Origin: Calditrichota bacterium
Lineage (GTDB): Bacteria; CLD3
Assembly (NCBI GenBank): GCA_008501735.1
Contig: QQUF01000007.1
Coordinates: forward strand, 1 to 64,000
DNA: 64,000 nucleotides
Direction: 5' to 3'
Shown here: positions 1,314 through 36,720 of the stretch, in pieces
Layout: the number at the start of each line of letters is the position of its first letter
How positions within the stretch are numbered: the stretch's first letter is position 1
Position numbers and translations under genes: made by a program
The notes under the pieces: model-generated
Told to the model about the DNA's origin: nothing
Database searches by the model: none
What the model saw: only the letters and a program-made list of their open reading frames with translations

Positions 1314-1333
1314 TTTTTCTCTCTCCTCTTATG

Positions 1334-1363
1334 AAAGCCCCATATTTTTATGGGGCTTTTTTT
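1334..1363 (+). terminator. Rho-independent terminator of the first T9SS gene
   Basis: A GC-rich stem (AAGCCCCA with TGGGGCTTT, arms 1335-1342 and 1351-1359) with an AT loop is followed by a run of seven T. It lies 21 bases after the stop codon. Confidence 0.9.
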
Positions 1364-1420
1364 GTTTAATCACTTCTTTACTTCCCTACAATTGACCTAA
1401 CTACACAAAATATTTACCCT

Positions 1421-1436
1421 GTAAGGAATTCCTTAC
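1421..1436. promoter_or_regulatory. 16-bp perfect palindrome, putative activator site
   Basis: GTAAGGAATTCCTTAC is a perfect palindrome. Its core GTAAGGA-N2-TCCTTAC recurs at 1508-1523, and a half site (CTGTAAGG) follows at 1438-1445. The palindromes lie upstream of a sigma-54-like promoter (1591-1606), the usual place for enhancer sites of NtrC-type activators. Binding by the activator encoded at 5341 is inferred. Confidence 0.55.
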
Positions 1437-1502
1437 ACTGTAAGGCAAACACTACAATTTGGGTAAACCTCTACTAATTAATTACTTATAGAAATATTTT
1501 CA

Positions 1503-1528
1503 ATTTTGTAAGGAAATCCTTACAAAAT
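1503..1528. promoter_or_regulatory. 26-bp inverted repeat, second putative activator site
   Basis: ATTTTGTAAGGA and TCCTTACAAAAT form perfect 12-base arms around AA. The central 16 bases match the palindrome at 1421-1436 except for the middle pair. The two centres are 87 bases apart, about eight helical turns. There is no T tract or neighbouring coding sequence that would make it a terminator. Confidence 0.55.
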
Positions 1529-1590
1529 CTATAATTTTCAAAATTTTACAAAATATGTGTTTAAAGCACCTAAAAGGTCTATTTTGAGTT

Positions 1591-1606
1591 TGGCACAGCC
1601 TTTGAA
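1591..1606 (+). promoter_or_regulatory. Sigma-54-type (-24/-12) promoter
   Basis: TGGCAC-N5-TTGAA matches the sigma-54 consensus TGGCAC-N5-TTGCA at all but one of the informative positions (GA instead of GC at -12). A start near 1617 would give a leader of about 45 bases for the gene at 1662. A very similar element (TTTGGCAC-N5-TTGAA) occurs at 57451. No mapped transcript supports it. Confidence 0.55.
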
Positions 1607-1661
1607 AGTTAGTTTAGAAAAAATTGACACAAATTTTTAAAAAAACTCAAAGGTTTTAAAA

Positions 1662-3602
1662 ATGAAAATCTTAACAAAAACAATATTGACTCTAAGCATT
1701 GGGTTAACACTTACTTCAAATCTTTTTTCTCAAAACAAAGTTTATTGGTCAGTTCTTAGTACACAAAGTATTCATAAATCAAATTTAGATGGAACAAGTG
1801 CAGAAACTGTAAAAACAGGCATAAATGCTTACGATTTTCAAATTGATTATTTTAACCAAAAAATGTATTGGATAGACAATGGCACAAGCATAAAAAGAGC
1901 AGATATTGATGGCTCTAATGTTGAGGGTTTAATTACTGGCTTAAGCCAATTAAAAGGGATTGCATTAGATTTAGAAAATGATAAAATTTATTTTACTAAC
2001 AGTGCTTTAGATAAAATCCAAAAATCGAATTTAGATGGCTCAAATGTTGAAGATGTTGTTGATACAAATGCAGGTCCTGTTGAAATAGAATTAGATCTAG
2101 TAAATTCAAAAATATATTGGTCTGATACTCAAGTTACAGATATTTTTAGATGTGATTTTGATGGCTCAAATATTGAATCTATCATTGATGCACAATGTTT
2201 TGATTTAGCAATTGATAACGTTAACAGTAAACTATATTTTTGTAATAATACTACTAAGAAAATTCAAAGATCAAATCTAGATGGCTCAAATGTTGAAGAT
2301 ATTATTGACAATGGTACGACGTGTTATCAGGTTTCACTTGATGCAACAAATGGAAAAATTTATTTCAATAATATTTTAGGAAATAAATTACAAAGAGCTG
2401 ATTTAGACGGTTCAAATATTGTTGATATAAATTCGGATAATGTTAAATCAATCGCAAATTTTGGAAATTTAAACTTAGTACAAAATCCAGGCTGTGAAGA
2501 GGAACTTGTTGGAGATGAAATTCCTAGTTGGACTGAAGCTTCAGGTACAAAATGGACTCAAAGATCAACAAATCCGTCGCCTTTTGAAGGTTCTTTTTAT
2601 TTTTATGCAGGTAGCCAATCCGGAACTGCTGAACTACAACAAGATGTCAATGTCTCAGAATACAGTAATTCAATTGATAATGGAAATGCAACCTTTAATT
2701 GGTCAAGTTATGCGGCAACTAAACAAGGTATTGATGACGCAAAAATTATTCTTGAATACAGAGATGTAACGAATACAACAGTTTTAGATACTTACGATTC
2801 AGGATTTTATAGCGGACAAACTTGGACAGAATTTTCGGATAGTAGAATAGCACCTGTTGGAACAAGATTTATCAGAATTAGAATGATTAGCGATAGAGAT
2901 TTGGGACCACAAAATAATGGTAATCACGATAATTTAAATTTATTCACTACAGCCGAGTCAAATGCTGATTCTCCTCTTGCAATCGAATTAGATTCATTCC
3001 AAGTTCGTCAAATTGAAAATTCAATTCAACTCAAATGGACGACTGCTTCTGAAACTGAAAATGAAGGTTTTAATGTTTACAGAAAAACAGGAAACAGAAA
3101 TTTCACTCAAATTGCTTCTTACAAAGGAAATTCTGAACTTCTTGGAGTATTGAACTCAACAGTTTCAAACAACTACATTTTCGTTGACAATTCAGAACTT
3201 CGTAACAACGAAACTTACACATACTACATTTCTGATGTTGAAACTAACGGAGTCGAAACTAAGCATAAAGAACAAGCTCAAACGATTAAATTCAATCTTA
3301 CCGAAGAAAATACTCAAACAAAACTTGACTACGTTTTAGCACAAAACTTTCCAAATCCTTTCAACCCAAGCACAACAATCAATTTCCAAATCAAAAAAGA
3401 CCAAAGAGTAAAACTCCAAGTTTACAACTTAAACGGTCAGCTTGTTAAAGAACTTTTGAACGATAAAAAGAACAAAGGTTCATACTCTGTTAAATGGAAT
3501 GGAACTGACAGTTTCGGAAATCAAGTTTCAAGTGGAACTTACTTCTACAAAATTTTAGCAGGAACTTTCACTCAAACCAACAAAATGATTTTGCTCAAAT
3601 AA
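1662..3602 (+). CDS. Secreted YWTD-propeller protein with T9SS sorting domain
   Basis: 646 residues. A signal peptide (residues 1-23, ending near FSQ) is followed by six YWTD/LDL-receptor-B-type blades (about 25-265), each with the tell-tale pair 'K.YW.d/yf' and 'R.DLDGSNVED'. Next come a jelly-roll-like insert (about 275-430), a fibronectin-like module with ETENEGFNVYRKTG (about 440-545) and a T9SS type A sorting domain ending in KMILLK. It should be a cell-surface or released protein; such propellers usually bind protein or glycan ligands, but no ligand can be named. The gene at 3698 is a tandem paralogue that lacks the insert. The sigma-54-like promoter at 1591 suggests control by the activator encoded at 5341. 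The ATG start is supported by the signal peptide. Confidence 0.85.
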   Translation: MKILTKTILTLSIGLTLTSNLFSQNKVYWSVLSTQSIHKSNLDGTSAETVKTGINAYDFQIDYFNQKMYWIDNGTSIKRADIDGSNVEGLITGLSQLKGIALDLENDKIYFTNSALDKIQKSNLDGSNVEDVVDTNAGPVEIELDLVNSKIYWSDTQVTDIFRCDFDGSNIESIIDAQCFDLAIDNVNSKLYFCNNTTKKIQRSNLDGSNVEDIIDNGTTCYQVSLDATNGKIYFNNILGNKLQRADLDGSNIVDINSDNVKSIANFGNLNLVQNPGCEEELVGDEIPSWTEASGTKWTQRSTNPSPFEGSFYFYAGSQSGTAELQQDVNVSEYSNSIDNGNATFNWSSYAATKQGIDDAKIILEYRDVTNTTVLDTYDSGFYSGQTWTEFSDSRIAPVGTRFIRIRMISDRDLGPQNNGNHDNLNLFTTAESNADSPLAIELDSFQVRQIENSIQLKWTTASETENEGFNVYRKTGNRNFTQIASYKGNSELLGVLNSTVSNNYIFVDNSELRNNETYTYYISDVETNGVETKHKEQAQTIKFNLTEENTQTKLDYVLAQNFPNPFNPSTTINFQIKKDQRVKLQVYNLNGQLVKELLNDKKNKGSYSVKWNGTDSFGNQVSSGTYFYKILAGTFTQTNKMILLK

Positions 3603-3624
3603 TTTTACTCCCCTGACAAAACAC

Positions 3625-3655
3625 TGAAAGTCTCAGATTCTTTTTGAGACTTTCA
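3625..3655 (+). terminator. Terminator-like hairpin between the two propeller genes
   Basis: TGAAAGTCTCA and TGAGACTTTCA form a perfect 11-bp stem with a nine-base loop. There is no clear T run after it, so it may stabilise a 3' end or allow partial read-through into the gene at 3698. The same hairpin and the same preceding bases occur after that gene. Confidence 0.5.
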
Positions 3656-3697
3656 CCTTAAACAGAAAATTAACTTTAAAAAAATAGGATAAAAACA

Positions 3698-5170
3698 ATG
3701 AAAACTTTAACTAAAACTCTTTTGACTTTAAGTATTGGCTTAACAATTTCAACAAACCTTATTGCTCAAGACAAAATTTATTTTACTGATAGAGGAACAA
3801 CTCCTCGACAAATTTTTAAAGCAAATTTAGACGGTTCAAATGTGGAATCAATTATCTCATCAGGTTTAAGTAGTCCAAGAGAAATTGTATTAGATGCAAC
3901 AAATTCTAAAATTTACTGGGCTGACCAAGGTACTCAGAAAATCCAAAGAGCTGATTTAGATGGCTCGAATGTAGAAGACCTTGTTACAGGAATTTCAGGA
4001 GCTCACGGAATGGCTATTGATTTTAATAGTCAGAAAATTTATTGGAGTGCTTTTGGTTTAGATAAAATTCAAAGAGCTGACTTAGATGGTTCAAATGTCG
4101 AAGACATTATTACAGGCTTAACGAGTCCCGTAGGAATTGCATTAGACCTTGTAAACTCAAAGTTATATTGGGGAGATATTGGACCTAATAAAATTCAAAG
4201 GTCAGATTTAGATGGTTCTAATATTGAAGATATTGTTACAGGACTTCATCCTTTTTATTCTTCAATGGAAATTGATACAGAAAACTCAAAAATTTACTTT
4301 GGTGAAGGTAGTTCAATAAGAAGAGCAGATTTAGATGGTTCTAATGAGGAAAGTGCTATTAGTGGTTTATCTCGAGTTTCTGGAATTGGATTAGATTTGA
4401 CAAATTCAAAAATTTATTGGACTGACCAAAACAACGATAAAGTTCAAAGGGCAAACTTAGATGGAACAAATGTTGAGGATTTAGTTTCAACAGGATTAGA
4501 TATTCCAGCCGGAATAGCACTTTTTGAAAATTCTGATGCTCCACTTTCAGTTGAATTAAATTCTTTCCAAGCTCGTCAAATCGAAAACTCAATCCAACTT
4601 ACTTGGTCAACTGCTTCTGAAACTGAAAATGAAGGCTTTAATGTTTACAGAAAAACAGGTGACAGAAATTTCATTCAAATTGCTTCTTACAAAAGTCATA
4701 ATGAACTTCTTGGTCAAGGAAATACATCTTTTAATTCTACTTACAGATTTGTTGATAATTCAAAATTGCAAAATAACGAACTTTACACTTACTACATTTC
4801 TGATGTAGAAACAAACGGACTTGAAACTAAACACGAAGAAAATTCTCAAACTGTAAAATTTGTTCTCGGTGAGGAAAATGTAAACACTAAAAAAGAATAC
4901 AAATTAGCACAAAACTTCCCGAACCCTTTTAACCCAAGCACAACAATTTCTTACCAACTCGCAAAAGATAGAAAAGTTCAACTAAAGATTTATAATCTCC
5001 AAGGTGAGCTTGTAAATGAACTTGTGAATGAGAAAAAGAATAAAGGTTCACACTCTGTAAATTGGAATGGAACTGACAAATATGGGAATCAAGTCTCAAG
5101 CGGTACTTACTTTTACAAACTGACAGCAGGAAATTTTACTCAAACTAACAAAATGATTTTACTCAAATAA
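3698..5170 (+). CDS. Secreted YWTD-propeller protein with T9SS sorting domain (tandem paralogue)
   Basis: 490 residues. A signal peptide (to about residue 23, LIAQ) is followed by six or seven YWTD-type blades (about 24-275) with repeated 'KIYW.D' and 'R.DLDGSNVED' strands, a fibronectin-like module (about 280-390) and a T9SS sorting domain (NFPNPFNPSTTISYQL to KMILLK). It parallels the gene at 1662 along its whole length except that the insert between propeller and fibronectin-like module is absent. The spacing (95 bases) and the lack of an obvious promoter of its own suggest co-transcription with 1662. Function beyond surface display is unknown. Confidence 0.85.
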   Translation: MKTLTKTLLTLSIGLTISTNLIAQDKIYFTDRGTTPRQIFKANLDGSNVESIISSGLSSPREIVLDATNSKIYWADQGTQKIQRADLDGSNVEDLVTGISGAHGMAIDFNSQKIYWSAFGLDKIQRADLDGSNVEDIITGLTSPVGIALDLVNSKLYWGDIGPNKIQRSDLDGSNIEDIVTGLHPFYSSMEIDTENSKIYFGEGSSIRRADLDGSNEESAISGLSRVSGIGLDLTNSKIYWTDQNNDKVQRANLDGTNVEDLVSTGLDIPAGIALFENSDAPLSVELNSFQARQIENSIQLTWSTASETENEGFNVYRKTGDRNFIQIASYKSHNELLGQGNTSFNSTYRFVDNSKLQNNELYTYYISDVETNGLETKHEENSQTVKFVLGEENVNTKKEYKLAQNFPNPFNPSTTISYQLAKDRKVQLKIYNLQGELVNELVNEKKNKGSHSVNWNGTDKYGNQVSSGTYFYKLTAGNFTQTNKMILLK

Positions 5171-23065: not shown

Positions 23066-25843
23066 ATGAATAAAATTTTCAAAAAATTTTTTGATATTCG
23101 GCAAGGTGAACACCAAATTGCAATTTTGATGTTCATTCAAATTTTTCTTATCATTTCCTCGTTCACAGTTTTAAAAGCAGTTCGAGATGCTGTTTTCCTT
23201 GCAAAATTCAGTGCTAACGAAATCCCATATCTTTACATTTTAATTGCAGTAATTGTTGGCTTTGTAGCTTATGTTTACTCTGAGTTCAGCACAAAATTTC
23301 ACCTTGTGAAATTCATTCTTGCAACTAATTTAATTTTAGTAGGGCTTTTAGTTTCTCTATTTCTTTTGATGAAATTTTATCCACTTTCATTTTTACCTTT
23401 TGTACTCTACTTGCTTTCTGCAATTTTCGGAATCCTTACCAACGCTCAATTTTGGCTTTTCGCAAATTTTATTTACAATCCTCGTGAAGCAAAAAGACTT
23501 TTCAGTTTTATTGGAACAGGAGCAATTGCAGGTGGAATTTTTGGAGGACAATTTGCACAACAAGGAGCAGATTTTCTGGGAACTGAGAATTTACTTCTAC
23601 TATGTTCAGGATTAGTTTTTATCTCCTCTGCTCTAACAAAACTCACAGCAAAAGTTCTTGAAAAAAATGATTTTATACTCATCAAACCAGAAACTGAAAA
23701 AACCAAAGTCATTAGAAATTCTTCACCGATAAAATTAATTTTGGGCTCAAAATATTTGAGTTTGATTTCAGGCATAATTTTTATGACAATTATGGTTTCG
23801 ACCTTTGCAGATTTTCAGTTCAAAGTAATCGCTAAAGAAAACTTTCTTACTGAAGATACTTTAACTCACTTTTTTGGCTTATTTTACACTTACTTGGGAA
23901 TTGTTTCATTAATTTTCCAAATCCTCTTCACAAGTCCGATTTTAAGAAAATACGGAATTGGGATTTCTGCAATGATTTTGCCAATTGCAATGTTTTTGGG
24001 TTCAACTTTTACAATTTTTGAAGCAAGTATTTTAGTAGGTGTTTACCTAAAAGGTAGTGAAGGAGTCTTTGGAAATTCAATTAATAAATCGGTGATGGAA
24101 TTATTTTTTATGCCAGTAAACGAAGCTGTAAAAAAGCGTGTTAAAGCCTTCATCGAAATGTTTATTGACCGCTCAGCGACAGGAATTGCAGGAATTTTTC
24201 TTTTATTTTTAGTTTCATTTTTGGACTTGACTATTTCTCATATTGCTTGGTTTTCACTTTCATTTGTTGGGATTTGGTTAACACTAATTTGGTATGCCAA
24301 AAAAGAGTATTTAAAAGCTCTGCAAAAGACTTTTGAGAGAAAAGAAATTGACCCTGAAATAGTTTTAAATGTTGAAGATTCGGCTGGTTTGGAATTAGTA
24401 AAGAAAACATTTAGAAATGGAACTGAAAAACAGATTTTGTATTTAATTTCAATTATGAATGACGACGAGAAAATAAATTTAAATGAAGTATTTTCAGAAC
24501 TTCTTGAAAATGAAAGTCCAGCAATTCGTTATGAAGCGATTTCATTTTTATCTAGTCAAAACGAACCTAAACTTCTATCTAAAATTGAACCTTTTTTAAA
24601 CGATTCTGATCCCAAAATTGTTGCTGAAGCTATTTGCTTTACTTTGAGAAATTCTGATAAACAAAGAGATTTAATTGAAAAAAGACTTCAAAATGAAAAT
24701 GACGTAAAGTTTTTGTTAGCTTATTTTCTATTTGCAGTGAAACACAAGCAACTTGATTCAAAATCAATTTCAAAATACATTCAAAAATTTGAGACTCTTT
24801 TAGACCCAAGTTCAAACGAAGCAATTAGTGGGCAACTTGAGATTGCTAAAATTATTGGTGACATTGACAAAGATTCTCCACTCTTTAGGTTAATTCCAAA
24901 TTTTCTCAATAATCCAAATTTAGAAGTTGCTAGAAAAGCATTAGAAAATGTTGGAAAGTCTAGAAACACAGATTTAATACCTATTTTAATTGAAAAACTT
25001 TCTAATGTGAAATTACGAAAAGAAGCTGCGAAAGCACTTTCAGAGTATGGTGACGAGGTAATTGATATTTTACTTAAATATTTAAACGATACGAATTCAA
25101 GTATAACATTGAGAAGAAACATTCCATTTGTTTTAAGAAGGTTTGAAACTCAAGAAGCTGTTGATAAAGTTTTAAAAAATTTAGGTCAATCTGATTCTTT
25201 AGTAGAATATCGATTAATAAAAGCTGTTAATAAAATCAAAGCGAAAAAACCTGAAATAATTTTTGATAATAAATTAGTCGAAGAAGCAATTATTGAGAAA
25301 GCTGAAAAGTATTACAAATTATTGGTGTTAGAAAAAGGTATCAAATTATTGCCAAGTTCGTACAAAGCAAAGGCAATTACCAAAAAGGCAGTTATAGAGA
25401 AACAAGATTTAACTTTTGAGGAAATTTTCAGACTTCTTGGACTAAAATTTGATTTACTAAGAATGCGTTCAACCTTTAGTGGGTTAAAAAGCAAGGATAA
25501 ACGAATTAGAGCAAATGCTTTAGAATTTATTGACACTTTTCTCACAGGACAAAAAATTAAACCAATTATTTTTCCAATATTCTTAGGAGATGAAATTTCT
25601 ATCAATACAAAATTGAGTAATATTAAGAATCATTTAGAAGTTGAATCAAAATTAACTTCTACAACAATTTTTGTAAATTCAATGATTGAATTTAAGGACA
25701 CTTGGTTAATAATTTTATCACTAGATATAATTGGGAAATTAAGATTATTAGATTTGGCAGAAAATTTGCAAAAAATTTTAGTAAACCAGCCTATTTCAAT
25801 TCAAAAGATTGGAAGACAAACTTTTGAGGAACTGAAATCCTAA
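23066..25843 (+). CDS. Npt-family transporter fused to HEAT repeats
   Basis: 925 residues. Residues 1-430 are a 12-segment Npt/Tlc-type transporter (KKFFDIRQGEHQIAILMF start, GTGAIAGGIFGGQFAQQ glycine-rich segment, IEMFIDRSATGIAG) homologous to the protein at 20330. From about 440 to 760 the chain is helical with HEAT-like repeats (SPAIRYEAISFLSSQNEP, NPNLEVARKALENVGKS, NVKLRKEAAKALSEYGDE). The last ~150 residues are helical and unassigned. HEAT arrays bind proteins, so the transporter part may recruit or respond to a cytoplasmic partner. The codon usage is even along the length, so the fusion looks genuine. A cyclic-nucleotide domain, which some fused homologues have, is not evident. Confidence 0.8.
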   Translation: MNKIFKKFFDIRQGEHQIAILMFIQIFLIISSFTVLKAVRDAVFLAKFSANEIPYLYILIAVIVGFVAYVYSEFSTKFHLVKFILATNLILVGLLVSLFLLMKFYPLSFLPFVLYLLSAIFGILTNAQFWLFANFIYNPREAKRLFSFIGTGAIAGGIFGGQFAQQGADFLGTENLLLLCSGLVFISSALTKLTAKVLEKNDFILIKPETEKTKVIRNSSPIKLILGSKYLSLISGIIFMTIMVSTFADFQFKVIAKENFLTEDTLTHFFGLFYTYLGIVSLIFQILFTSPILRKYGIGISAMILPIAMFLGSTFTIFEASILVGVYLKGSEGVFGNSINKSVMELFFMPVNEAVKKRVKAFIEMFIDRSATGIAGIFLLFLVSFLDLTISHIAWFSLSFVGIWLTLIWYAKKEYLKALQKTFERKEIDPEIVLNVEDSAGLELVKKTFRNGTEKQILYLISIMNDDEKINLNEVFSELLENESPAIRYEAISFLSSQNEPKLLSKIEPFLNDSDPKIVAEAICFTLRNSDKQRDLIEKRLQNENDVKFLLAYFLFAVKHKQLDSKSISKYIQKFETLLDPSSNEAISGQLEIAKIIGDIDKDSPLFRLIPNFLNNPNLEVARKALENVGKSRNTDLIPILIEKLSNVKLRKEAAKALSEYGDEVIDILLKYLNDTNSSITLRRNIPFVLRRFETQEAVDKVLKNLGQSDSLVEYRLIKAVNKIKAKKPEIIFDNKLVEEAIIEKAEKYYKLLVLEKGIKLLPSSYKAKAITKKAVIEKQDLTFEEIFRLLGLKFDLLRMRSTFSGLKSKDKRIRANALEFIDTFLTGQKIKPIIFPIFLGDEISINTKLSNIKNHLEVESKLTSTTIFVNSMIEFKDTWLIILSLDIIGKLRLLDLAENLQKILVNQPISIQKIGRQTFEELKS

Positions 25844-25887
25844 TTTTAAAATTACCAATGAGAATAATATTTACCTTGAAATAATCA

Positions 25888-26048
25888 TTGACCTTTAAAC
25901 AATTATTCATTTATTTATTGCTATTATGTTTAAGTAGTTTAACGAGACCCCACTTTTCGCTAAACTACTATTTTATAAGCAATAACACAAATTAGGATTA
26001 TTTTTTAGATTCAATTACTTTAACAATTTATTTCAAAGGTACATCCTT
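25888..26048 (+). promoter_or_regulatory. Conserved promoter/leader with hairpin, copy 1
   Basis: TTGACCTTTAA (25888) is followed 60 bases later by the loop motif CCCCACTTTTCGCTAA (25948-25963) held in a hairpin: AGTAGTTTA (25933-25941) pairs with TAAACTACT (25961-25969), and TTATTGCT (25915-25922) with AGCAATAA (25978-25985). A 36-base segment at 26005-26040 is identical to copy 2, and AAGG-N5-CCTT brackets the ribosome binding site just before ATG. Copy 2 (30834-30994) has the same motif, spacing and start region but different stem bases. No known riboswitch class is recognised. Confidence 0.6.
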
Positions 26049-29000
26049 ATGAAAAAAAGTTTTACTATTTCTGATTTGGCTTTTACCCGAAAGTCATTTG
26101 GAAAATTTGTCTTTAGTGTAGTAGCAAGTGGATTCTTGCTAGGTTCTGGATTGACATCTTCAGATGCTTATGCAGACACATTTATTATTGGAACTGGAAC
26201 AACTGTAAATGGCGGTACAGGTTACCCTACTCCTTTTGGGAATTATTATGATAGTGCTAGAACTCAGTATCTTTACACAGCAGCCGAGTTAATTGGGACT
26301 TCGATGAATGCAGGAACTACAATAAGCCAAATTGGCTTTTACGTTACTGCTTTAAACGGAATGGGAACTATGGGAGATTTTACTGTAAGTATGAAAAATT
26401 CTACCTCCTCTTCTTTAACAAGCACTTTTGAAACAGGTTTATCTACTGTTTATGGTCCTGTCGGAGAAACTGCGACTGCTGGCGATTGGCATATGATTAC
26501 TTTAGATAACCCATTTATTTGGGACGGATCTTCAAATATAGTTGTCGAAACTTGCTTTTTTAGTTCTTATACTAACAATGCTTCTGTCCAATCAACAGCT
26601 GCTCCTGGAACTACAGTTTATAAAAATGCAGATGGTTCATCTCAATGTAGTGCATTAACTGGAACAACAACGACTAACCGTGCAAATATCCGTTTTGAAG
26701 GAACATTAGGAGTCGCTTCTTCAGATGATGTTGGAGTAACAAATATTGTTGTGGTAGGCGACCCAAATGATATTGGAGTATCAACAGATTTTCAAGTAAC
26801 AATTAAAAACTTCGGAACGAATCCTGCTACGGGAACTGTTGCTATCGATGTAACTAATGATGGTGTTGATGAGTTATTTGGAAACCCTTTTTCTAACATT
26901 CCACCGGACGGAACAGAGCTTGTTACTTTTACAAATGTTTCCTTGCCTGGTACAGGAGGTACATTTACCTGTAAAGCCACAGCAACTTTAACTTCTGGGT
27001 CTGATGGTAACAACCTTAACGATACTCGAACACAAACTTATAATATGATTGCACCTTGTGTACCAGTTGATTTAGGAGATGCTGGGTCAGATCATACAAA
27101 ATTTGCAAGTTCAGACCCAAGTTTACCAGCTGGTTTTGGTGCGACTAATATTACTTCTACAATCGATTTATCTGGACTTACTGGAATTGTAATGGATATT
27201 AACGTTTATGTTGATATTGATCATGTGTATGATGGAGATGTTGAAATTTCATTAGAATCTCCAAATGGAACAATTATTGATTTATCAAGTGGTAACGGTA
27301 GTTCTGGAGACGATTATAGCTGTACTGTTTTTGATGATGATACTCCAGCTGGAGGAGCTATAACAGGTGGCTCTCCACCTTTTAGTAATTCTTTTAGTCC
27401 AGAAGTTGCTCTTTCAGGATTTGACGGGGAATCAATTACAGGTAATTGGATTTTACATGTTGATGACAACTACCCTTCTCTTGATAATGGAACCCTTAAT
27501 GAATGGGGAATTTTTGTATCTTATGGAGCACCTCCTTCAATTGATGGAGAAGTTGTAAGTGTTGCTGTTGTGGAACCAGCTTTTACTGGACTTCCAATGA
27601 CAGTGAATATAGATGTCAAAAACAATAGTACTGATCCAATTAGTGGAACAGTTAATTTTGATAGTGATAATGACGGAACCGATGAATCAACTGGAAATGC
27701 TTTTACAGAATTAGCCAGTGGAGCAACTTCTACTGTTGTTGTAACAACTAATGCTCCAGCAACTGCAGGGACTTTCACAGGTCGTGCAACTATTGTTTTG
27801 GCTGGTGACGGAAATGCTTCAAATGACACTGAAACTGATAGTTATGCTGTTATACCCGCAAATGATGTTGCCCTCAATAGTGTAACTGGAGGTGGGGTTT
27901 ACGGTGAATCGGATTTAATTGATATTACTGTCGAATACGAAAACAAAGGTGCGTCTAATGCAACTTTCGATATTGCTGTAGATATTACTAATGATGGAAC
28001 TCCAGATGCTCTTCTTACAGTAAATGAAATTGGTCCTGGTGTAATTGGAACACTTCCTTTTAACGGGTTAGCTAATCCTGGAACTCCTGGTTCTTATACA
28101 GTATCAGCAACAGTAACTCAAACAAACGCAACTGATACAAATGCTTCAAACAATACTGTAACGAATACTTACAGTGTTATACCTGGTTGTATAACAACTT
28201 TCCCTTATACTCAAGATTTTGAGTCAACTGCTGATTTCCCAAATGCAACCGGAACTGGTGGTGGAAATCCATCTCCTGCAACTGGTTGGTTAAATGGAAC
28301 AGTTGATTTTAATTGGGGTTATGATTCTGGAACAACAGGTTCAGGTAGTACAGGTCCAACAGTAGATAATACTTTAGGAAATTCTTCAGGAAGATATGCT
28401 TATGTAGAAGCATCAAGTCCTAATTTCCCTTCAAAATTTGCTCATTTGTATTCACCATGTTTTGACATTAGTGGTTTGACTAATCCAAGTCTTTCATTCT
28501 TTTACCATATGTTTGGACAAACAATGGGAGATCTTCACATTGACATTGTTCAAGAAGATTTAACTACTATTGCTGCAAGTGTTCTTACTTTAACTGGACA
28601 ACAACAAGCTGCAACTGGAGATCCTTGGTTAGAATCAATTGTTGATTTATCTGCTTATATTGGAAATGGTCAAATTAGAATTCGTTTTGTAGGTAGTACA
28701 GGTAGTGATTTCTATAGTGATATTTGTATTGATGATGTAATGGTTCAAGATCTGGTTGGCGGTTCTGCACCAACAATTACTCACACACCAATTTCTTCAA
28801 ATTCAGAAGGAAATACTGCAACAGTTACAGCGGATATTAATGATGTTGACGGAGACTTAGCAAGCGGTGAAAATGCACCAACAGTTTGGTATCGAGTAAA
28901 TGGTGGTGCTTTTAACTCTGTTTCAATGACTTCTGCTCCTTCTCCTTCTTCACAAGGAATTGTAGATGTAAAAAGAGTTGAATCTAAATCTAAAGCACAA

Positions 29001-30740
29001 ATTACTTCTTCCAAAAAATATGGAAACAACCAAGTTTTCGCTACTTTTAGTGCTGACATTCCTGCTCAAACTGGTAATGATTTAGTTGAATATTACATCG
29101 CTGCCCAAGATGAAGCTAGTAATGTGAAAACTGCTCCAAATGGTGGAAGCGGTTTAACTCCTCCTGGTTCAACTCCTCCAGGAAGTTTCTATTCTTACAC
29201 TGTAACTCCTCCTCCTCCAGCAAATGATGACTGTGCAAATGCAATTGAAATTACTAACTGGACAACCCAAATTACTGGTAATACTGCTCAAGCTACTCAA
29301 GACGCTACAGATAACCAATCTTGTGGTGGTTCTTCTACTCACAAATCTGTTTGGTATAAATTTACAATTCCTGCCGGTGAAAATTGGAATGTTAGTTTCG
29401 ATTTAAGCGGTTCAAGTTATGATACTGCAATGGAACTATTTTCAGGAACTTGCGGTGGTGGATTAACTTCAATTGTTTGTGATGATGATGGAGCTGGAAC
29501 AACTACACAATCAAGAATTCCTGAAAACTCAGGAACAATTGGCATAACAGCTGGTAATTACTACTTATTAGTTTCTGGTTATAATTCAAATAGTGGAGAT
29601 TATACTTTACAACCGACTTGTAATCAAATTCTTCCTCCTGTTAACAATGGAGGAGCTCCATTAGGTAATGGTTCAAATCCTGTAAACACAAATGGTGGCA
29701 CAACTCCTGTTGTTGACATAATTCTTAATGGTGGTGCAAACAACCCAACTTCAATAACAGTAAATACTTCTGCTGGAACAACTCCTGGAGGTTTCCAAAA
29801 TGGGGTTTCTAGAACTTTCAATATTCAAACTACAGGTGGAACTAATTTCACAACTGACTTAAAATTCTACTTCTTAGCTACTGAAGCTGCTGCTGGAATG
29901 TCTGTTGGAACAACTGCTAAAGTTTGGAGAAAAGATGGAAGTACTTGGGTTGAAGTTGGTTCAGGAACTGTTGTTAATGAAGGTGGATCTCCAGAATGGT
30001 GGTCTGTAACAATTACAGGAGTTTCTTCTACTGCTCCAAGTTCAGATAAACACGTTGGTAATTTAAGTGCTGTTGATGGAGAATTTGGAATTGCTAATGA
30101 TGGTGATTCTCCTCTATTTGTTGAACTTGCTTACTTGAATGTCAAACAAGAGAAACAATCAGCTGTTCTTTCTTGGGGAACTGAGAGTGAAGTTGATAAC
30201 ATTGGATTTGAGATTTACAGAAGAGATTCTGATAATTCCGAATTCAGTTTGATTGCTTCATACAGAACTCACGAAGTTCTTAAAGGAGCAGGAAACTCTT
30301 CTTTACCAATTGATTACAGTTTTGTAGATGACAATGTTGTTGTTGGTAAAACTTACACTTACAAGTTAGTTGATGTTGATGCTGACTTATTTGAAACAGC
30401 ACACGAAGTAGTAAGTTTGACAATTGACTACAGCAAAGCTACAGTTATTGATAGATTTGTTTTAAGACAAAACTACCCTAACCCATTTAACCCTGAAACT
30501 ACAATTAGTTTTGAGGTTCCAAATGTTACTTCTTCAATGTCTCGAGTTGAGATTTCAATTTTCAACATCAAAGGACAAGTAGTTCGTAACTTGGTAAATC
30601 AAGCTTACAGTGGTGGTTTACACAGTGTTGTTTGGGATGGAAAAGATAACAGTGGTAAGTCTTTAGCTTCTGGAGTTTATTTCTTCAAACTTAGAACTAA
30701 TGACAATCAACTCACTAGAAAAATGTTGTTACTCAAATAA
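26049..30740 (+). CDS. Giant multidomain T9SS-sorted protein (P-domain, MAM, CARDB)
   Basis: 1563 residues. A long signal peptide (1-43, DAYA; the first 25 residues almost identical to those of the gene at 30995) is followed by a beta-rich domain (45-225), a CARDB-like domain (230-335), a proprotein-convertase P-type domain (about 337-490; DVEISLESPNGT, ITGNWILHVDD), two CARDB-like domains (495-710), a MAM-like domain (713-905), a linker, a PPC-like domain starting ANDDCANAIEI (about 1058-1195), a further beta domain, a fibronectin-like module (1352-1460) and a T9SS sorting domain (1468-1563; NYPNPFNPETTISFEV to KMLLLK). No protease or other catalytic domain is seen, so it looks like an adhesin or scaffold. 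The 3' 2 kb is shared with 30995. Confidence 0.85.
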   Translation: MKKSFTISDLAFTRKSFGKFVFSVVASGFLLGSGLTSSDAYADTFIIGTGTTVNGGTGYPTPFGNYYDSARTQYLYTAAELIGTSMNAGTTISQIGFYVTALNGMGTMGDFTVSMKNSTSSSLTSTFETGLSTVYGPVGETATAGDWHMITLDNPFIWDGSSNIVVETCFFSSYTNNASVQSTAAPGTTVYKNADGSSQCSALTGTTTTNRANIRFEGTLGVASSDDVGVTNIVVVGDPNDIGVSTDFQVTIKNFGTNPATGTVAIDVTNDGVDELFGNPFSNIPPDGTELVTFTNVSLPGTGGTFTCKATATLTSGSDGNNLNDTRTQTYNMIAPCVPVDLGDAGSDHTKFASSDPSLPAGFGATNITSTIDLSGLTGIVMDINVYVDIDHVYDGDVEISLESPNGTIIDLSSGNGSSGDDYSCTVFDDDTPAGGAITGGSPPFSNSFSPEVALSGFDGESITGNWILHVDDNYPSLDNGTLNEWGIFVSYGAPPSIDGEVVSVAVVEPAFTGLPMTVNIDVKNNSTDPISGTVNFDSDNDGTDESTGNAFTELASGATSTVVVTTNAPATAGTFTGRATIVLAGDGNASNDTETDSYAVIPANDVALNSVTGGGVYGESDLIDITVEYENKGASNATFDIAVDITNDGTPDALLTVNEIGPGVIGTLPFNGLANPGTPGSYTVSATVTQTNATDTNASNNTVTNTYSVIPGCITTFPYTQDFESTADFPNATGTGGGNPSPATGWLNGTVDFNWGYDSGTTGSGSTGPTVDNTLGNSSGRYAYVEASSPNFPSKFAHLYSPCFDISGLTNPSLSFFYHMFGQTMGDLHIDIVQEDLTTIAASVLTLTGQQQAATGDPWLESIVDLSAYIGNGQIRIRFVGSTGSDFYSDICIDDVMVQDLVGGSAPTITHTPISSNSEGNTATVTADINDVDGDLASGENAPTVWYRVNGGAFNSVSMTSAPSPSSQGIVDVKRVESKSKAQITSSKKYGNNQVFATFSADIPAQTGNDLVEYYIAAQDEASNVKTAPNGGSGLTPPGSTPPGSFYSYTVTPPPPANDDCANAIEITNWTTQITGNTAQATQDATDNQSCGGSSTHKSVWYKFTIPAGENWNVSFDLSGSSYDTAMELFSGTCGGGLTSIVCDDDGAGTTTQSRIPENSGTIGITAGNYYLLVSGYNSNSGDYTLQPTCNQILPPVNNGGAPLGNGSNPVNTNGGTTPVVDIILNGGANNPTSITVNTSAGTTPGGFQNGVSRTFNIQTTGGTNFTTDLKFYFLATEAAAGMSVGTTAKVWRKDGSTWVEVGSGTVVNEGGSPEWWSVTITGVSSTAPSSDKHVGNLSAVDGEFGIANDGDSPLFVELAYLNVKQEKQSAVLSWGTESEVDNIGFEIYRRDSDNSEFSLIASYRTHEVLKGAGNSSLPIDYSFVDDNVVVGKTYTYKLVDVDADLFETAHEVVSLTIDYSKATVIDRFVLRQNYPNPFNPETTISFEVPNVTSSMSRVEISIFNIKGQVVRNLVNQAYSGGLHSVVWDGKDNSGKSLASGVYFFKLRTNDNQLTRKMLLLK

Positions 30741-30799
30741 CTTACAATTTTCTTCTCGATAATAAAAAAGCCCGTCAAAAACTGACGGGCTTTTTTTGT
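28833..30799 (+). repeat. Long direct repeat, copy 1 (3' end of giant T9SS gene plus terminator)
   Basis: By eye, bases 28833-30799 match 34754-36720 without a difference, offset 5921. A less perfect match extends upstream to about 28450. It covers the last 635 codons and the terminator, and ends right after the T run. Confidence 0.9.
30764..30798 (+). terminator. Rho-independent terminator after the first giant gene
   Basis: AAAAAGCCCGTCA (30765-30777) and TGACGGGCTTTTT (30783-30795) form a strong stem with a five-base loop and a T run. Confidence 0.95.
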
Positions 30800-30833
30800 T
30801 TAATAACTACAAAGTTTTATTTTAAAATATCTA

Positions 30834-30994
30834 TTGACCTTTAATAAAATTTTGATTTCTTTATAATTATTATTTACCAATAGATTTGCAATTCCCCACT
30901 TTTTGCTAACCTATTGGTAAATAAGAAGTAATGCATATAAAATTAAATTATTAGATTCAATTACTTTAACAATTTATTTCAAAGGTGAAACCTT
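30834..30994 (+). promoter_or_regulatory. Conserved promoter/leader with hairpin, copy 2
   Basis: TTGACCTTTAA (30834) is followed by CCCCACTTTTTGCTAA (30894-30909), 60 bases on, as in copy 1. The motif sits in a hairpin whose stem TTATTTACCAATAG (30870-30883) pairs perfectly with CTATTGGTAAATAA (30911-30924), while GCA/TGC can close an inner loop. The stem bases differ from copy 1 on both sides, yet pairing is kept. The 36 bases at 30951-30986 are identical to copy 1, and AAGGT-gaa-ACCTT directly precedes the ATG and could hide the Shine-Dalgarno sequence. Confidence 0.6.
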
Positions 30995-33900
30995 ATGAAA
31001 AAAAGTTTTACTATTTCCGATTTGGCTTTTACCCGAAAGTCAATTGGAAAATTTGTCTTTAGTGTAGTAGCAGGCTGTTCCCTGTTAGTTTCATCTGTTT
31101 CTTTGACAGAAGTTTATGGTCAATGTGTTACAACATTTCCTTATTCACAAAACTTTGATAACAATGCTGATTTCCCTCCTAGTACAAGTACAACCGGAAC
31201 AACTCCTGCCGTAGGCACAGGTTGGACAACCGGAGTTGCAGACTTTAAATGGGCAGTTGATACAGGTACAACAGGTTCCAGTTTAACAGGACCTTCTGGA
31301 GATAACACTTCAGGTTCAGGGTATTATGCTTATACCGAAGCAACAAGTAATTTTAATAAAACTGCTATTCTTTATTCACCTTGTTTCGATATTTCAGGAT
31401 TAGCAGCTCCTCAACTTTCATTTTGGTATCATATGTATGGAGCTGATATGGGAGATTTAATTATTGACATTGTAGATGAAAATGATGTCTCGATTGCAAC
31501 TGATATTTTTTCAATTTCGGGACAACAACAAACATCTTCTGCTGATGCTTGGCTTGAAGCTACCGTAAGTTTGACTCCTTACAAGGCAAACGGGCAAATT
31601 AGAATTTGTTTTAGAGGCGTTACAGGTCCTCAATATACAAGTGATATGGCATTTGATGATGTTTTAGTTGGCGAAGCACCTTCCGTTGACGCACAGATTT
31701 TATCTGTAACAGCTGGCGGTCCTTATGCTGAAAGCTCAACAATGTCAATTGATGTTCAAGTCCAAAATAATGGTGCAGACCCTTTAGAAGGAAATATTAA
31801 TTTAGACTTGACAAATGACGGAAGTACTGATTTTACTCAGGCTTTTGCTGGTTTAGGTTCAGGATTAACTACAACTGTCAATTTTAGCGTTACAGCTCCT
31901 GGGACTGCTGGTTCTTATACTGCTTCAGCGACTGTAGTTGTTGTAGGTGACGGAAATCCTTTAAATGACTCAGGAAGTGATACTTATGACGTAGTTCCTG
32001 GTTGTGTTACATCTTATCCTTTCAATGAAACATTTGACGGTTTTGCAAGTGGTAATGGTGCATTTACTCCTTCTACAGGTTGGTTAAATTCTACTAATTC
32101 AACTGCTGCCTCATACAATTGGACTGTAGATGCCTCTGGAACTCCTTCATCTCCAACAGGACCTTCAGACGATGTATCAAATCAATTAAGTGGCACTACT
32201 GGAAATTATGTTTTTGTTGAGACTTCTAGCGGTGCAGATGGAGATGTTACAACACTCCTTTCACCTTGTTTTAACTTAGCTTCATTAACAACGCCGCAAG
32301 CCAGTTTTTGGTATCATATGTTTGGTGATTTGATTGGTGATTTACACGTTGATATCGTTAACAATGAAACTGGAGTTGACGTTGTAACAAGTGCTTGGAG
32401 TCAAAGTGGAGCTGTTCAAACTTCATCAGCAGACCTTTGGTTAGAGCAATTAATTGACCTTACACCAGCAGCTGGATTGTCTATTAATCTACGTTTTAGA
32501 TACATTAAAAACGGAGGTTGTTGTACTGGTGATGCTGCTATTGACCATTTGACTGTTCGTGAAGCTCCAAGTGTTGATGTTCAAGTTCTTTCTGTAAATA
32601 TTGGTGGACCATTCGGCGAAGGAACAGCAATGACTGTTGACGTTCAAGTCCAAAATAATGCTGGTGAACTTGTTAGTGGTGATGTAAACTTAGATTTAAC
32701 TGATGATGGAAGTACTGATTTTACTCTTCCTTTCGCTGATTTAGGAGCTGGTGCAAACACAACTGTTACTTTTAACGTTACTGCTCCTGGAACTGCTGGT
32801 TCTTACACTGCTTCTGCTACAACAGTTGCGGCAGGTGATGGAAACCCATTAAATGACTCGGGAAGTGATACTTATGACGTTGTTCCTGGTTGTGTAACAA
32901 CTTACCCATTTAATGAAACCTTTGATGGCTTTGCGAGTGGAAATGGAGCCTTTACTGCTGTAACAGGTTGGACAAACTCTACAAATTCTTCTGCTGCCGG
33001 ATACAATTGGACAGTTGATGATTCCGGAACTCCTTCGTCTCCAACAGGACCAGCAAATGATGTAACAAATCAATTAAGCGGAAGCACAGGAAATTATGTT
33101 TTTGTAGAAACTTCAAGTGGTAGTAACGGAGATGTTACTACACTTCTTTCACCTTGTTTTGATTTAACTTCATTAACAACACCACAAGCAAGTTTTTGGT
33201 ATCATATGTTTGGAGCTTTAATTGGTGACTTACACGTTGATATTGTAAACAATGAAACCGGTGTTGACATTGTAACAAGTGCTTGGAGTCAAAGTGGAGC
33301 TGTTCAAACGGCATCTGCTGACCCTTTTTTGGAGCAATTAATTGACCTTTCTCCAGCTGCTGGATTAGCTATAAACTTGCGATTTAGATACATTAAAAAT
33401 GGTGGTTGCTGTACTGGTGATGCTGCTATAGATCATTTAACAGTTCGTGAAGCTCCAAATGTAGATGCTGAAATTACAAGTGTAACTGTAGTTGAGCCAA
33501 CTTATCCTAGTGTTGTAATGACTGTTAATGTTGATGTATTAAATAACAGTGTTGACCCAATTGAGGGTTCTGTAAACTTTGACATCGACAATGACGGAAC
33601 TGATGAATCTACAGGAACATCATTTGCAGGCTTAGCTTCCGGTGCAACTACAACTGTTGTAATTACAACAAACTCTCCGGCAACAATAGGTTCATTTACA
33701 GGAAAAGCAACTGTTGTTGTAGCTGGCGATGGAAATGTAAACAATAACTCTGGAATTGATAGTTATACAGTTTCACACGCAGACGATATGGCAATTACAA
33801 GCGTAAATGCACCTGCAGTAGCTGACGGAACTCCAACAATGAGCGTTGATGTTGTAGTTACAAACAACGGACTTAATCCTGCTACCGGAAATGTTTCTCT

Positions 33901-36661
33901 TGATTTAACAACTGATGGTTCTTCTGACGGAACAGAAACAGTTACTGAGTTAGCATCAGGTGCATCTACCACTGTTACATTCAGTGGACTTACAACACCT
34001 GCTTTGGGTTCTTACACAGCAACCGCAACAATAACCCAAACAGATGCTACTGACACTAATAATGGTAATGATTCAGGAACAGGTACATTTAATGTTACAC
34101 CAGGTTGTGTAACAACTTTCCCTTATACTCAAGATTTTGAGTCAACTGCTGAATTCCCAACAGCAACTTCTGCAACAACTAATGGAAATCCTAATATTAC
34201 AACAGGTTGGATAAATGGAAGCGGAGATTTTGATTGGGGTTATGATAGTGGAACAACTGTTTCAAGTAATACAGGTCCAACAGTGGATAATACTTTAGGA
34301 ACTTCTTCTGGACGTTACGCTTACACAGAAGCATCAAGTCCAAATAATAACATGGATACAGCAATTCTTTATTCACCATGTTTTGACATTAGTGGTTTGA
34401 CTAATCCAAGTCTTTCATTCTTTTACCATATGTTTGGACAAACAATGGGAGATCTTCACATTGACATTGTTCAAGAAGACTTAACTACTATTGCTGCAAG
34501 TGTTCTTACTTTAACTGGACAACAACAAGCTGCAACTGGAGATCCTTGGTTAGAATCAATTGTTGATTTAACTGCTTATGTGGGCTCTGGCCAGGTTAGG
34601 GTTTGTTTTAGAGCAATTACAGGTAGTGATTTCTACAGTGATATTTGTATTGATGATGTAATGGTTCAAGATCTGGTTGGCGGTTCTGCACCAACAATTA
34701 CTCACACACCAATTTCTTCAAATTCAGAAGGAAATACTGCAACAGTTACAGCAGATATTAATGATGTTGACGGAGACTTAGCAAGCGGTGAAAATGCACC
34801 AACAGTTTGGTATCGAGTAAATGGTGGTGCTTTTAACTCTGTTTCAATGACTTCTGCTCCTTCTCCTTCTTCACAAGGAATTGTAGATGTAAAAAGAGTT
34901 GAATCTAAATCTAAAGCACAAATTACTTCTTCCAAAAAATATGGAAACAACCAAGTTTTCGCTACTTTTAGTGCTGACATTCCTGCTCAAACTGGTAATG
35001 ATTTAGTTGAATATTACATCGCTGCCCAAGATGAAGCTAGTAATGTGAAAACTGCTCCAAATGGTGGAAGCGGTTTAACTCCTCCTGGTTCAACTCCTCC
35101 AGGAAGTTTCTATTCTTACACTGTAACTCCTCCTCCTCCAGCAAATGATGACTGTGCAAATGCAATTGAAATTACTAACTGGACAACCCAAATTACTGGT
35201 AATACTGCTCAAGCTACTCAAGACGCTACAGATAACCAATCTTGTGGTGGTTCTTCTACTCACAAATCTGTTTGGTATAAATTTACAATTCCTGCCGGTG
35301 AAAATTGGAATGTTAGTTTCGATTTAAGCGGTTCAAGTTATGATACTGCAATGGAACTATTTTCAGGAACTTGCGGTGGTGGATTAACTTCAATTGTTTG
35401 TGATGATGATGGAGCTGGAACAACTACACAATCAAGAATTCCTGAAAACTCAGGAACAATTGGCATAACAGCTGGTAATTACTACTTATTAGTTTCTGGT
35501 TATAATTCAAATAGTGGAGATTATACTTTACAACCGACTTGTAATCAAATTCTTCCTCCTGTTAACAATGGAGGAGCTCCATTAGGTAATGGTTCAAATC
35601 CTGTAAACACAAATGGTGGCACAACTCCTGTTGTTGACATAATTCTTAATGGTGGTGCAAACAACCCAACTTCAATAACAGTAAATACTTCTGCTGGAAC
35701 AACTCCTGGAGGTTTCCAAAATGGGGTTTCTAGAACTTTCAATATTCAAACTACAGGTGGAACTAATTTCACAACTGACTTAAAATTCTACTTCTTAGCT
35801 ACTGAAGCTGCTGCTGGAATGTCTGTTGGAACAACTGCTAAAGTTTGGAGAAAAGATGGAAGTACTTGGGTTGAAGTTGGTTCAGGAACTGTTGTTAATG
35901 AAGGTGGATCTCCAGAATGGTGGTCTGTAACAATTACAGGAGTTTCTTCTACTGCTCCAAGTTCAGATAAACACGTTGGTAATTTAAGTGCTGTTGATGG
36001 AGAATTTGGAATTGCTAATGATGGTGATTCTCCTCTATTTGTTGAACTTGCTTACTTGAATGTCAAACAAGAGAAACAATCAGCTGTTCTTTCTTGGGGA
36101 ACTGAGAGTGAAGTTGATAACATTGGATTTGAGATTTACAGAAGAGATTCTGATAATTCCGAATTCAGTTTGATTGCTTCATACAGAACTCACGAAGTTC
36201 TTAAAGGAGCAGGAAACTCTTCTTTACCAATTGATTACAGTTTTGTAGATGACAATGTTGTTGTTGGTAAAACTTACACTTACAAGTTAGTTGATGTTGA
36301 TGCTGACTTATTTGAAACAGCACACGAAGTAGTAAGTTTGACAATTGACTACAGCAAAGCTACAGTTATTGATAGATTTGTTTTAAGACAAAACTACCCT
36401 AACCCATTTAACCCTGAAACTACAATTAGTTTTGAGGTTCCAAATGTTACTTCTTCAATGTCTCGAGTTGAGATTTCAATTTTCAACATCAAAGGACAAG
36501 TAGTTCGTAACTTGGTAAATCAAGCTTACAGTGGTGGTTTACACAGTGTTGTTTGGGATGGAAAAGATAACAGTGGTAAGTCTTTAGCTTCTGGAGTTTA
36601 TTTCTTCAAACTTAGAACTAATGACAATCAACTCACTAGAAAAATGTTGTTACTCAAATAA
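30995..36661 (+). CDS. Giant multidomain T9SS-sorted protein with four MAM-like domains
   Basis: 1888 residues. Long signal peptide (1-42), then four MAM-like domains, each starting 'GCVT..PF/PY...F' and containing a SPCF...S/A.L and WYHMFG/FYHMFG strand (about 43-225, 336-525, 633-820, 1038-1225), separated by CARDB-like domains (225-335, 525-632, 820-1037). Then the same tail as the gene at 26049: PPC-like domain beginning ANDDCANAIEI, fibronectin-like module and T9SS sorting domain ending KMLLLK. MAM and CARDB modules are adhesive beta-sandwiches, so a surface adhesin is likely; no enzyme domain is seen. The second and third MAM-CARDB units are recent tandem duplicates. Leader and 3' end are shared with the upstream paralogue, while the N-terminal domains differ. 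Confidence 0.87.
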   Translation: MKKSFTISDLAFTRKSIGKFVFSVVAGCSLLVSSVSLTEVYGQCVTTFPYSQNFDNNADFPPSTSTTGTTPAVGTGWTTGVADFKWAVDTGTTGSSLTGPSGDNTSGSGYYAYTEATSNFNKTAILYSPCFDISGLAAPQLSFWYHMYGADMGDLIIDIVDENDVSIATDIFSISGQQQTSSADAWLEATVSLTPYKANGQIRICFRGVTGPQYTSDMAFDDVLVGEAPSVDAQILSVTAGGPYAESSTMSIDVQVQNNGADPLEGNINLDLTNDGSTDFTQAFAGLGSGLTTTVNFSVTAPGTAGSYTASATVVVVGDGNPLNDSGSDTYDVVPGCVTSYPFNETFDGFASGNGAFTPSTGWLNSTNSTAASYNWTVDASGTPSSPTGPSDDVSNQLSGTTGNYVFVETSSGADGDVTTLLSPCFNLASLTTPQASFWYHMFGDLIGDLHVDIVNNETGVDVVTSAWSQSGAVQTSSADLWLEQLIDLTPAAGLSINLRFRYIKNGGCCTGDAAIDHLTVREAPSVDVQVLSVNIGGPFGEGTAMTVDVQVQNNAGELVSGDVNLDLTDDGSTDFTLPFADLGAGANTTVTFNVTAPGTAGSYTASATTVAAGDGNPLNDSGSDTYDVVPGCVTTYPFNETFDGFASGNGAFTAVTGWTNSTNSSAAGYNWTVDDSGTPSSPTGPANDVTNQLSGSTGNYVFVETSSGSNGDVTTLLSPCFDLTSLTTPQASFWYHMFGALIGDLHVDIVNNETGVDIVTSAWSQSGAVQTASADPFLEQLIDLSPAAGLAINLRFRYIKNGGCCTGDAAIDHLTVREAPNVDAEITSVTVVEPTYPSVVMTVNVDVLNNSVDPIEGSVNFDIDNDGTDESTGTSFAGLASGATTTVVITTNSPATIGSFTGKATVVVAGDGNVNNNSGIDSYTVSHADDMAITSVNAPAVADGTPTMSVDVVVTNNGLNPATGNVSLDLTTDGSSDGTETVTELASGASTTVTFSGLTTPALGSYTATATITQTDATDTNNGNDSGTGTFNVTPGCVTTFPYTQDFESTAEFPTATSATTNGNPNITTGWINGSGDFDWGYDSGTTVSSNTGPTVDNTLGTSSGRYAYTEASSPNNNMDTAILYSPCFDISGLTNPSLSFFYHMFGQTMGDLHIDIVQEDLTTIAASVLTLTGQQQAATGDPWLESIVDLTAYVGSGQVRVCFRAITGSDFYSDICIDDVMVQDLVGGSAPTITHTPISSNSEGNTATVTADINDVDGDLASGENAPTVWYRVNGGAFNSVSMTSAPSPSSQGIVDVKRVESKSKAQITSSKKYGNNQVFATFSADIPAQTGNDLVEYYIAAQDEASNVKTAPNGGSGLTPPGSTPPGSFYSYTVTPPPPANDDCANAIEITNWTTQITGNTAQATQDATDNQSCGGSSTHKSVWYKFTIPAGENWNVSFDLSGSSYDTAMELFSGTCGGGLTSIVCDDDGAGTTTQSRIPENSGTIGITAGNYYLLVSGYNSNSGDYTLQPTCNQILPPVNNGGAPLGNGSNPVNTNGGTTPVVDIILNGGANNPTSITVNTSAGTTPGGFQNGVSRTFNIQTTGGTNFTTDLKFYFLATEAAAGMSVGTTAKVWRKDGSTWVEVGSGTVVNEGGSPEWWSVTITGVSSTAPSSDKHVGNLSAVDGEFGIANDGDSPLFVELAYLNVKQEKQSAVLSWGTESEVDNIGFEIYRRDSDNSEFSLIASYRTHEVLKGAGNSSLPIDYSFVDDNVVVGKTYTYKLVDVDADLFETAHEVVSLTIDYSKATVIDRFVLRQNYPNPFNPETTISFEVPNVTSSMSRVEISIFNIKGQVVRNLVNQAYSGGLHSVVWDGKDNSGKSLASGVYFFKLRTNDNQLTRKMLLLK
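31988..33470 (+). repeat. Tandem intragenic repeat of ~890 bp (MAM + CARDB unit)
   Basis: Two MAM-like units starting near 31994 and 32885 are very similar in bases and residues (for example NETFDGFASGNGAFT, SAWSQSGAVQT and RYIKNGGCCTGDAAIDHLTV in both). They lie in frame within one gene. This kind of array can expand or contract by recombination. Confidence 0.8.
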
Positions 36662-36720
36662 CTTACAATTTTCTTCTCGATAATAAAAAAGCCCGTCAAA
36701 AACTGACGGGCTTTTTTTGT
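34754..36720 (+). repeat. Long direct repeat, copy 2
   Basis: The counterpart of 28833-30799, including the stop codon and terminator. The base just upstream (34753) is the nearest difference that I found. Confidence 0.9.
36685..36719 (+). terminator. Rho-independent terminator after the second giant gene
   Basis: An exact copy of the stem-loop and T run at 30764-30798. Confidence 0.95.

Follow-up and report, generated by a model that had tools for sequence, protein, structure and literature searches.

A near-identical 3' tail shared by two neighbouring T9SS-type cargo genes of a Calditrichota bacterium, and its likely homogenisation by recombination

Two tandem cargo genes and their common 3' end

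The window analysed here (64,000 nucleotides of contig QQUF01000007.1) carries two large neighbouring genes on the forward strand, both of the type IX secretion system (T9SS) cargo type. Gene 1 (26049-30740, 1563 amino acids) contains a P_proprotein domain (residues 383-488) and a single MAM domain (residues 746-900) in front of the shared tail, and gene 2 (30995-36661, 1888 amino acids) contains four MAM and three CARDB stretches in front of the same tail. The names of these domains suggest that the heads may serve binding or adhesion. Both genes have a complete reading frame behind an upstream region of their own, and no 40-mer is present on both of the window's strands. Immediately upstream of the two genes, positions 23066-25843 encode a TLC-type ATP/ADP transporter domain with HEAT repeats, and three more tandem open reading frames with related cargo tails (76-81% DNA identity over the last 100 codons) lie at 351-5170.

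Domain matches, converted from residues to bases, place a GBD_T9SS_assoc domain at 29220-29489 (copy at 35141-35410) and a FlgD_ig/Por_Secre_tail-type C-terminal sorting domain at 30507-30701 (copy at 36428-36622). Both proteins matched the sorting-domain models by which T9SS cargo is recognised, with 36.2 and 35.8 bits for TIGR04183 (cut-off 23) and 29.2 and 28.7 for PF18962 (cut-off 27). FlgD_ig outscored these models (49.1 and 46.8), which points to a fold common to flagellar FlgD-type domains. A search of the same genome for SprA and PorU-type components of the secretion machinery returned an SprA_N match above cut-off on contig C28 and a PorU-type sortase on contig C48 (C48:147265; 696.6 bits, cut-off 420). 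Both proteins therefore look like T9SS cargo and are putatively secreted or displayed on the surface.

The first-pass annotation had described by eye a tail of about 2 kb with no difference between the genes and with undrifted synonymous sites. Exact base comparison bore out both statements: 28833-30799 equals 34754-36720 over 1967 bp at an offset of 5921, with 0 differences, and third codon positions are unchanged throughout. The repeat includes the stop codon and a terminator-like hairpin with a T-run, recognised by eye at 30764-30797 (copy at 36685-36718); identity extends 59 bp beyond the stop codon, through this hairpin, and stops there, so that 59 of the 60 bases directly after the stop are equal. 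Among the 35 matches listed from the 59-contig assembly, for which 40 of 217 candidates were scored, the two copies in the window were the only full-length ones.

Near-identity begins to the left of the exact repeat, within the MAM domain of gene 1. Positions 28449-28649 differ from 34370-34570 at 1 of 201 bases (99.5% identity), and after a diverged patch at 28650-28697 (17 differences in 48 bp from 34571-34618) the stretch 28698-28832 again differs from gene 2 at only 2 of 135. The corresponding near-identical tract in gene 2 is 34370-36720. Immediately in front of it, the flank of gene 1 (28089-28448) is homologous to gene 2 but diverged, with 48 of 187 bases different at 28262-28448 (74.3% identity, offset 5921) and 34 of 161 at 28089-28249 (79%, offset 5918). 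Identity thus steps from 74.3% to 99.5% at 28449, and because the probability of 1 difference or fewer in 201 bases beside 48 in 187 is 5e-16, a chance origin of this border is excluded. The three features by which we recognised recombining tandem paralogues, namely a near-identical part, a diverged homologous flank and a sharp border between them, were all found in the pair.

The front ends, previously called quite different, do differ in their domains, but not along their whole length. Over 257 bp, the start of gene 1 and the region upstream of it (25870-26126) are 81% identical to their counterparts in gene 2 (30816-31072). In windows of 150 alignment columns, identity was 65-71% at 27514-27813, 55-57% at 27814-28113 and 76-81% at 28114-28410; to the left of 27514, where the domains are different, global alignment gave 37-58%. 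The upstream match and the 74-79% coding flank mark the two genes as the product of an old tandem duplication; their tails became alike only later, most probably through recombination.

Tails of neighbouring cargo genes in this genome and in others

We also compared cargo tails elsewhere in the genome, in stretches chosen for their matches to the window tail or heads and hence biased. Among 168 long open reading frames, 59 had this type of tail, and the 58 of at least 250 amino acids were kept. DNA identity over the last 100 codons reached 85% or more in 9 of the 24 adjacent pairs, in 5 of the 60 that were near but not adjacent and in 20 of the 1569 other cargo pairs. Six of the nine adjacent pairs have related heads, so simple tandem duplication may account for some of them, and the other three have unrelated heads. 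When only pairs with unrelated heads were considered, tails of at least 90% identity were found in 3 of the 11 adjacent pairs and in 1 of the 1187 non-adjacent ones (Fisher 2e-6), of at least 85% in 3 of 11 versus 14 of 1187 (9 of 5000 label shuffles reached 3) and of at least 80% in 3 of 11 versus 35 of 1187 (P = 0.004); these figures come from a post hoc test with thresholds picked after looking, on non-independent pairs from a biased sample, and with 222 pairs (one of them adjacent) set apart for want of a usable head.

Several of these pairs show a limited tract at the 3' end. Read back from the stop codon, C24:30872/32429 is 89% identical over the last 90 nt, 97-100% from 90 to 540 nt, then 76% and then about 40%, and holds a 374-bp exact match within both genes. 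Identity falls after about 270 nt in C46:138791/140294 and after about 630 nt in C47:5159/7120 and in the C13 pair. Under a permissive rule, a head relative other than the neighbour with the alike tail was identified for 9 of 36 genes; for 6 of these the best tail match is the neighbour's and the best head match is clearly another gene's (C24:30872, C24:32429, C38:4629, C46:140294, C47:5159 and C47:7120). Identity continues past the stop codon in 3 of 10 pairs (nine from this genome and one from another, L056, described below): besides the window pair, these are C38:7748/10235, with 60 of 60 bases equal, and L056, with 58 of 60. In the other 7 pairs only 14-38 of the first 60 bases after the stop are equal, as would be expected if selection acted on the coding tail or if homology were confined to it; this speaks against a general process at the DNA level.

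One genome of the same family (G001) and seven more of the same class were found among the genomes searched, and the species itself was not among the best 80 of 572 relatives in a contig scan. At 6 of 91 loci the search for direct repeats (120 bp or longer, identity 90% or higher) gave a match, and two of these are shared cargo tails. One, in the Ignavibacteriota MAG IGN3 (CP053447.1; L036), is 98.6% identical over 1384 bp, and the other, in Ignavibacterium sp. CROMO_A_100 (L056), is 90.6% identical over 1446 bp, with tails mostly at 75-99% and heads near 34-41%. In both, as in the window pair, cargo genes lie side by side and have similar tails behind dissimilar fronts. The IGN3 repeat differs from that of the window in comprising roughly the last 190 codons and some 810 bp of downstream sequence, and the CROMO_A_100 repeat in its lower identity over a shorter stretch. 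Of the remaining four loci, L092 has its repeat (239 bp) downstream of its open reading frames, and L053, L058 and L059 have repeats of 136-192 bp. When 93 loci were screened with protein guidance, tail DNA identity of 72% or more was reached by 4 of the 101 cargo pairs lying at one locus, from which the IGN3 pair had dropped out through the length filter, so strong tail sharing appears to be uncommon in the loci scanned.

No syntenic pair was found in G001, the nearest relative, where homologues of the TLC transporter, the GH57 gene and the tail lie on three separate contigs and the reading frame of the tail homologue runs into a contig end. The GH57 branching-enzyme homologue in that genome (C172:6503-8233; L257) is 75% identical and contains one TAA within the match, which may be terminal.

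Reliability of the assembled repeat

The first-pass annotation had also raised the possibility of a duplicated contig end. We reject this explanation, as the repeat lies at 28-37 kb in the interior of a 107,526-bp contig; nevertheless, part of the concern about the assembly stands, because there are signs of a de Bruijn assembly with k=127 that leave the zero difference and the copy number insecure. The assembly comprises 59 contigs (4.14 Mb), of which 116 of 118 termini were read (C2 consists of N throughout). Four contig-end dovetails share exactly 127 bases and one more is exact over 108, six contig-end forks share 127-130 bases, and 25 further pairs of contig ends overlap inexactly over 122-377 bp at 95% identity or more, perhaps through strain variation in the sample. 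Exact 127-base overlaps between contig ends are a mark of k=127 de Bruijn assembly. In the graph of such an assembly, a shared tail forms a loop, which the assembler may unroll, and closely similar variants may be collapsed into one. Three contigs, C18 (59,088 bp), C22 (44,888 bp) and C27 (39,448 bp), have exactly 127 bases in common between their own two ends, and may therefore be circular replicons, phages or graph loops.

Exact direct repeats of at least 127 bases within single pieces of sequence were those of the window pair (1967), C38 (931 and 820), C24 (374) and C10 (128) among 25 further stretches, and C38 again, C42 (137) and C33 (127) among 117 contig-end pieces. Those of C24 and C10 sit inside neighbouring cargo genes. 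The 820-bp repeat of C38 (9465-10284 and 11964-12783; L240) is mostly intergenic, running from the end of one cargo gene across a gap of 643 bp into the start of the following one, and the 931-bp repeat (C38:994-2899; L155) is direct, has a period of 975 and lies in one reading frame, with an assembled copy number that is doubtful.

It is quite possible, albeit not what we would expect, that the zero difference in the window is partly a product of assembly, the real tails being about 1% different and having been merged by a k=127 assembler that unrolled the loop of head 1, tail, head 2 and tail. The dovetails and forks of this length speak for it, the inexact overlaps are what a sample containing variants would give, and the identical runs at 28449-28832 measure 110, 90, 18 and 116 bp, all shorter than 127, before the run of 1967 begins. 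If the exact part differed as often as the near-identical blocks do (3 differences in 336), zero differences in 1967 bp would have a probability of 0.003 (computed post hoc). For these reasons the perfect identity may be inflated by the assembler, and the exact copy number is insecure. The two blocks to the left of 28833, with 200 of 201 and 133 of 135 bases equal and exact runs below 127, were nevertheless kept apart, so the near-identity itself does not depend on merging. Merged tails would also be compatible with recombination, in which case homogenisation was real but older and less perfect than it appears. A second tail that is wholly artefactual, one real tail having been used twice, is much less probable: the repeat does exceed a typical short read, but each head enters its own version of the near tail (20 differences in 28449-28832) before the exact part, and the same layout occurs in other organisms, one of them represented by a MAG whose record is titled chromosome. 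It is in repeats of this kind that de Bruijn assemblies deserve the least trust.

Origin of the shared tail and comparison with known systems

We consider it likely that the near-identity of the tails is real and was produced by recombination, although the evidence for the pair itself is one assembled sequence. An old tandem duplication gave rise to two large T9SS-type cargo genes, whose heads then diverged and now differ in their MAM, CARDB and P domains. The last 2.35 kb or so would subsequently have been homogenised by homologous recombination of the tails, either gene conversion or unequal exchange between sister chromosomes, from within the last MAM domain to just beyond the terminator-like hairpin; here the tract is observed and the process inferred. 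The diverged patch of about 48 bp inside the tract suggests at least two tracts. Gene conversion and unequal exchange are indistinguishable from one sequence, and either would be the simplest account. As the tail carries the sorting domain, a swap should leave export intact. A similar exchange seemingly affects some other neighbouring cargo genes of the genome, over roughly their last 270-630 nt. The earlier proposal of recent copying or gene conversion thus remains the best reading, given the sharp step, the mosaic patch and the similar cases in the genome, with the proviso that the zero differences on which it leaned are insecure in a k=127 assembly.

Two other histories would account for alike tails in neighbouring genes. 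The tandem layout and the upstream match could suggest a recent duplication of the whole gene followed by rapid divergence of the heads, but the DNA of the upstream region and start has fallen to 81% while the third positions of the tail are unchanged, and the step in identity is sharp; we set this history aside for its uneven divergence and regard it as very improbable. Purifying selection on the protein is barely conceivable as the cause. The tail protein sequence is conserved across the genome, and in several other pairs identity does end at the stop codon, but in the window pair the synonymous sites and the 59 bp after the stop are identical as well, and in the 1569 other pairs, where two genes have the same residue, the codon is also the same in a median of 53.5% of cases. 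This explanation, too, was set aside on account of the synonymous and downstream identity.

Homogenisation of the tails by recombination while the heads diversify suggests a simple route by which new surface proteins could become exportable. A broader and rather doubtful reading is that the sorting tail serves as a recombination handle in T9SS bacteria, with neighbouring cargo genes continually exchanging tails, such that heads and tails form separate lineages. If so, a new head arriving beside an existing cargo gene would gain a working, locally standard export tail, and the window pair would be the freshest event. In most of the other pairs identity goes no further than the stop codon, which makes this reading less likely.

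A comparable arrangement is known from Porphyromonas gingivalis. According to the passages of PMC9328147 that deal with this locus, hagA and kgp are tandem T9SS cargo genes with virtually identical 3' ends that include the sorting domain, and variants BE1 and BR1 lost kgp, for which the authors propose homologous recombination involving the hagA/kgp 3' ends. The window pair shares the tandem layout and alike 3' ends, and differs in its heads (MAM, CARDB and P-domain as opposed to haemagglutinin and Lys-gingipain), in that hagA-kgp, as described there, has genes lying between, and in that gene-loss variants are known for hagA-kgp and none for the window pair. In the relevant part of PMC5266723, the gingipain adhesin modules (rgpA, kgp, hagA) are described as rearranged among P. 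gingivalis strains; this too concerns modular C-terminal regions of T9SS cargo genes, but between strains of a competent pathogen, whereas the window case is found in one genome. Among the papers listed in a literature search, none on tail exchange among T9SS cargo was seen beyond the P. gingivalis work, which is no proof of absence, and two candidate precedents for gene conversion (PMC5808330 and PMC5714932) were discarded because the phrase occurs there only in the title of a reference. The window pair adds one more example to a kind already known from P. gingivalis; what is less familiar is a neighbour effect that extends to several cargo genes within a single genome.

Recombination between the tails would be mechanically expected to delete or duplicate gene 2, as had been suggested earlier, and variation of the displayed proteins is plausible. 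We think it unlikely that the locus is a variable surface-protein system, in which deletion, duplication or reshuffling of the genes changes the protein displayed. A long direct repeat 5.9 kb apart behind different heads would suit such a system, as would the disappearance of kgp from BE1 and BR1, which the pertinent passages of PMC9328147 attribute to recombination, but both genes retain their own upstream region and full reading frame. An exact-pattern scan of viral contigs gave no match.

Finally, relatives of the window heads occur on contig C48 (95114-107505 and 126306-144427; L111-L113), where five giant genes of 1719-2089 amino acids form two tandem groups. They have shuffled segments in common, at 65-86% DNA identity; the pairwise maximum of 86% counts against a general homogenisation at the DNA level, and no FlgD-type tail was seen at the C-termini in the printed ends of these genes. 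The PorU-type sortase gene at C48:147265 lies close by.
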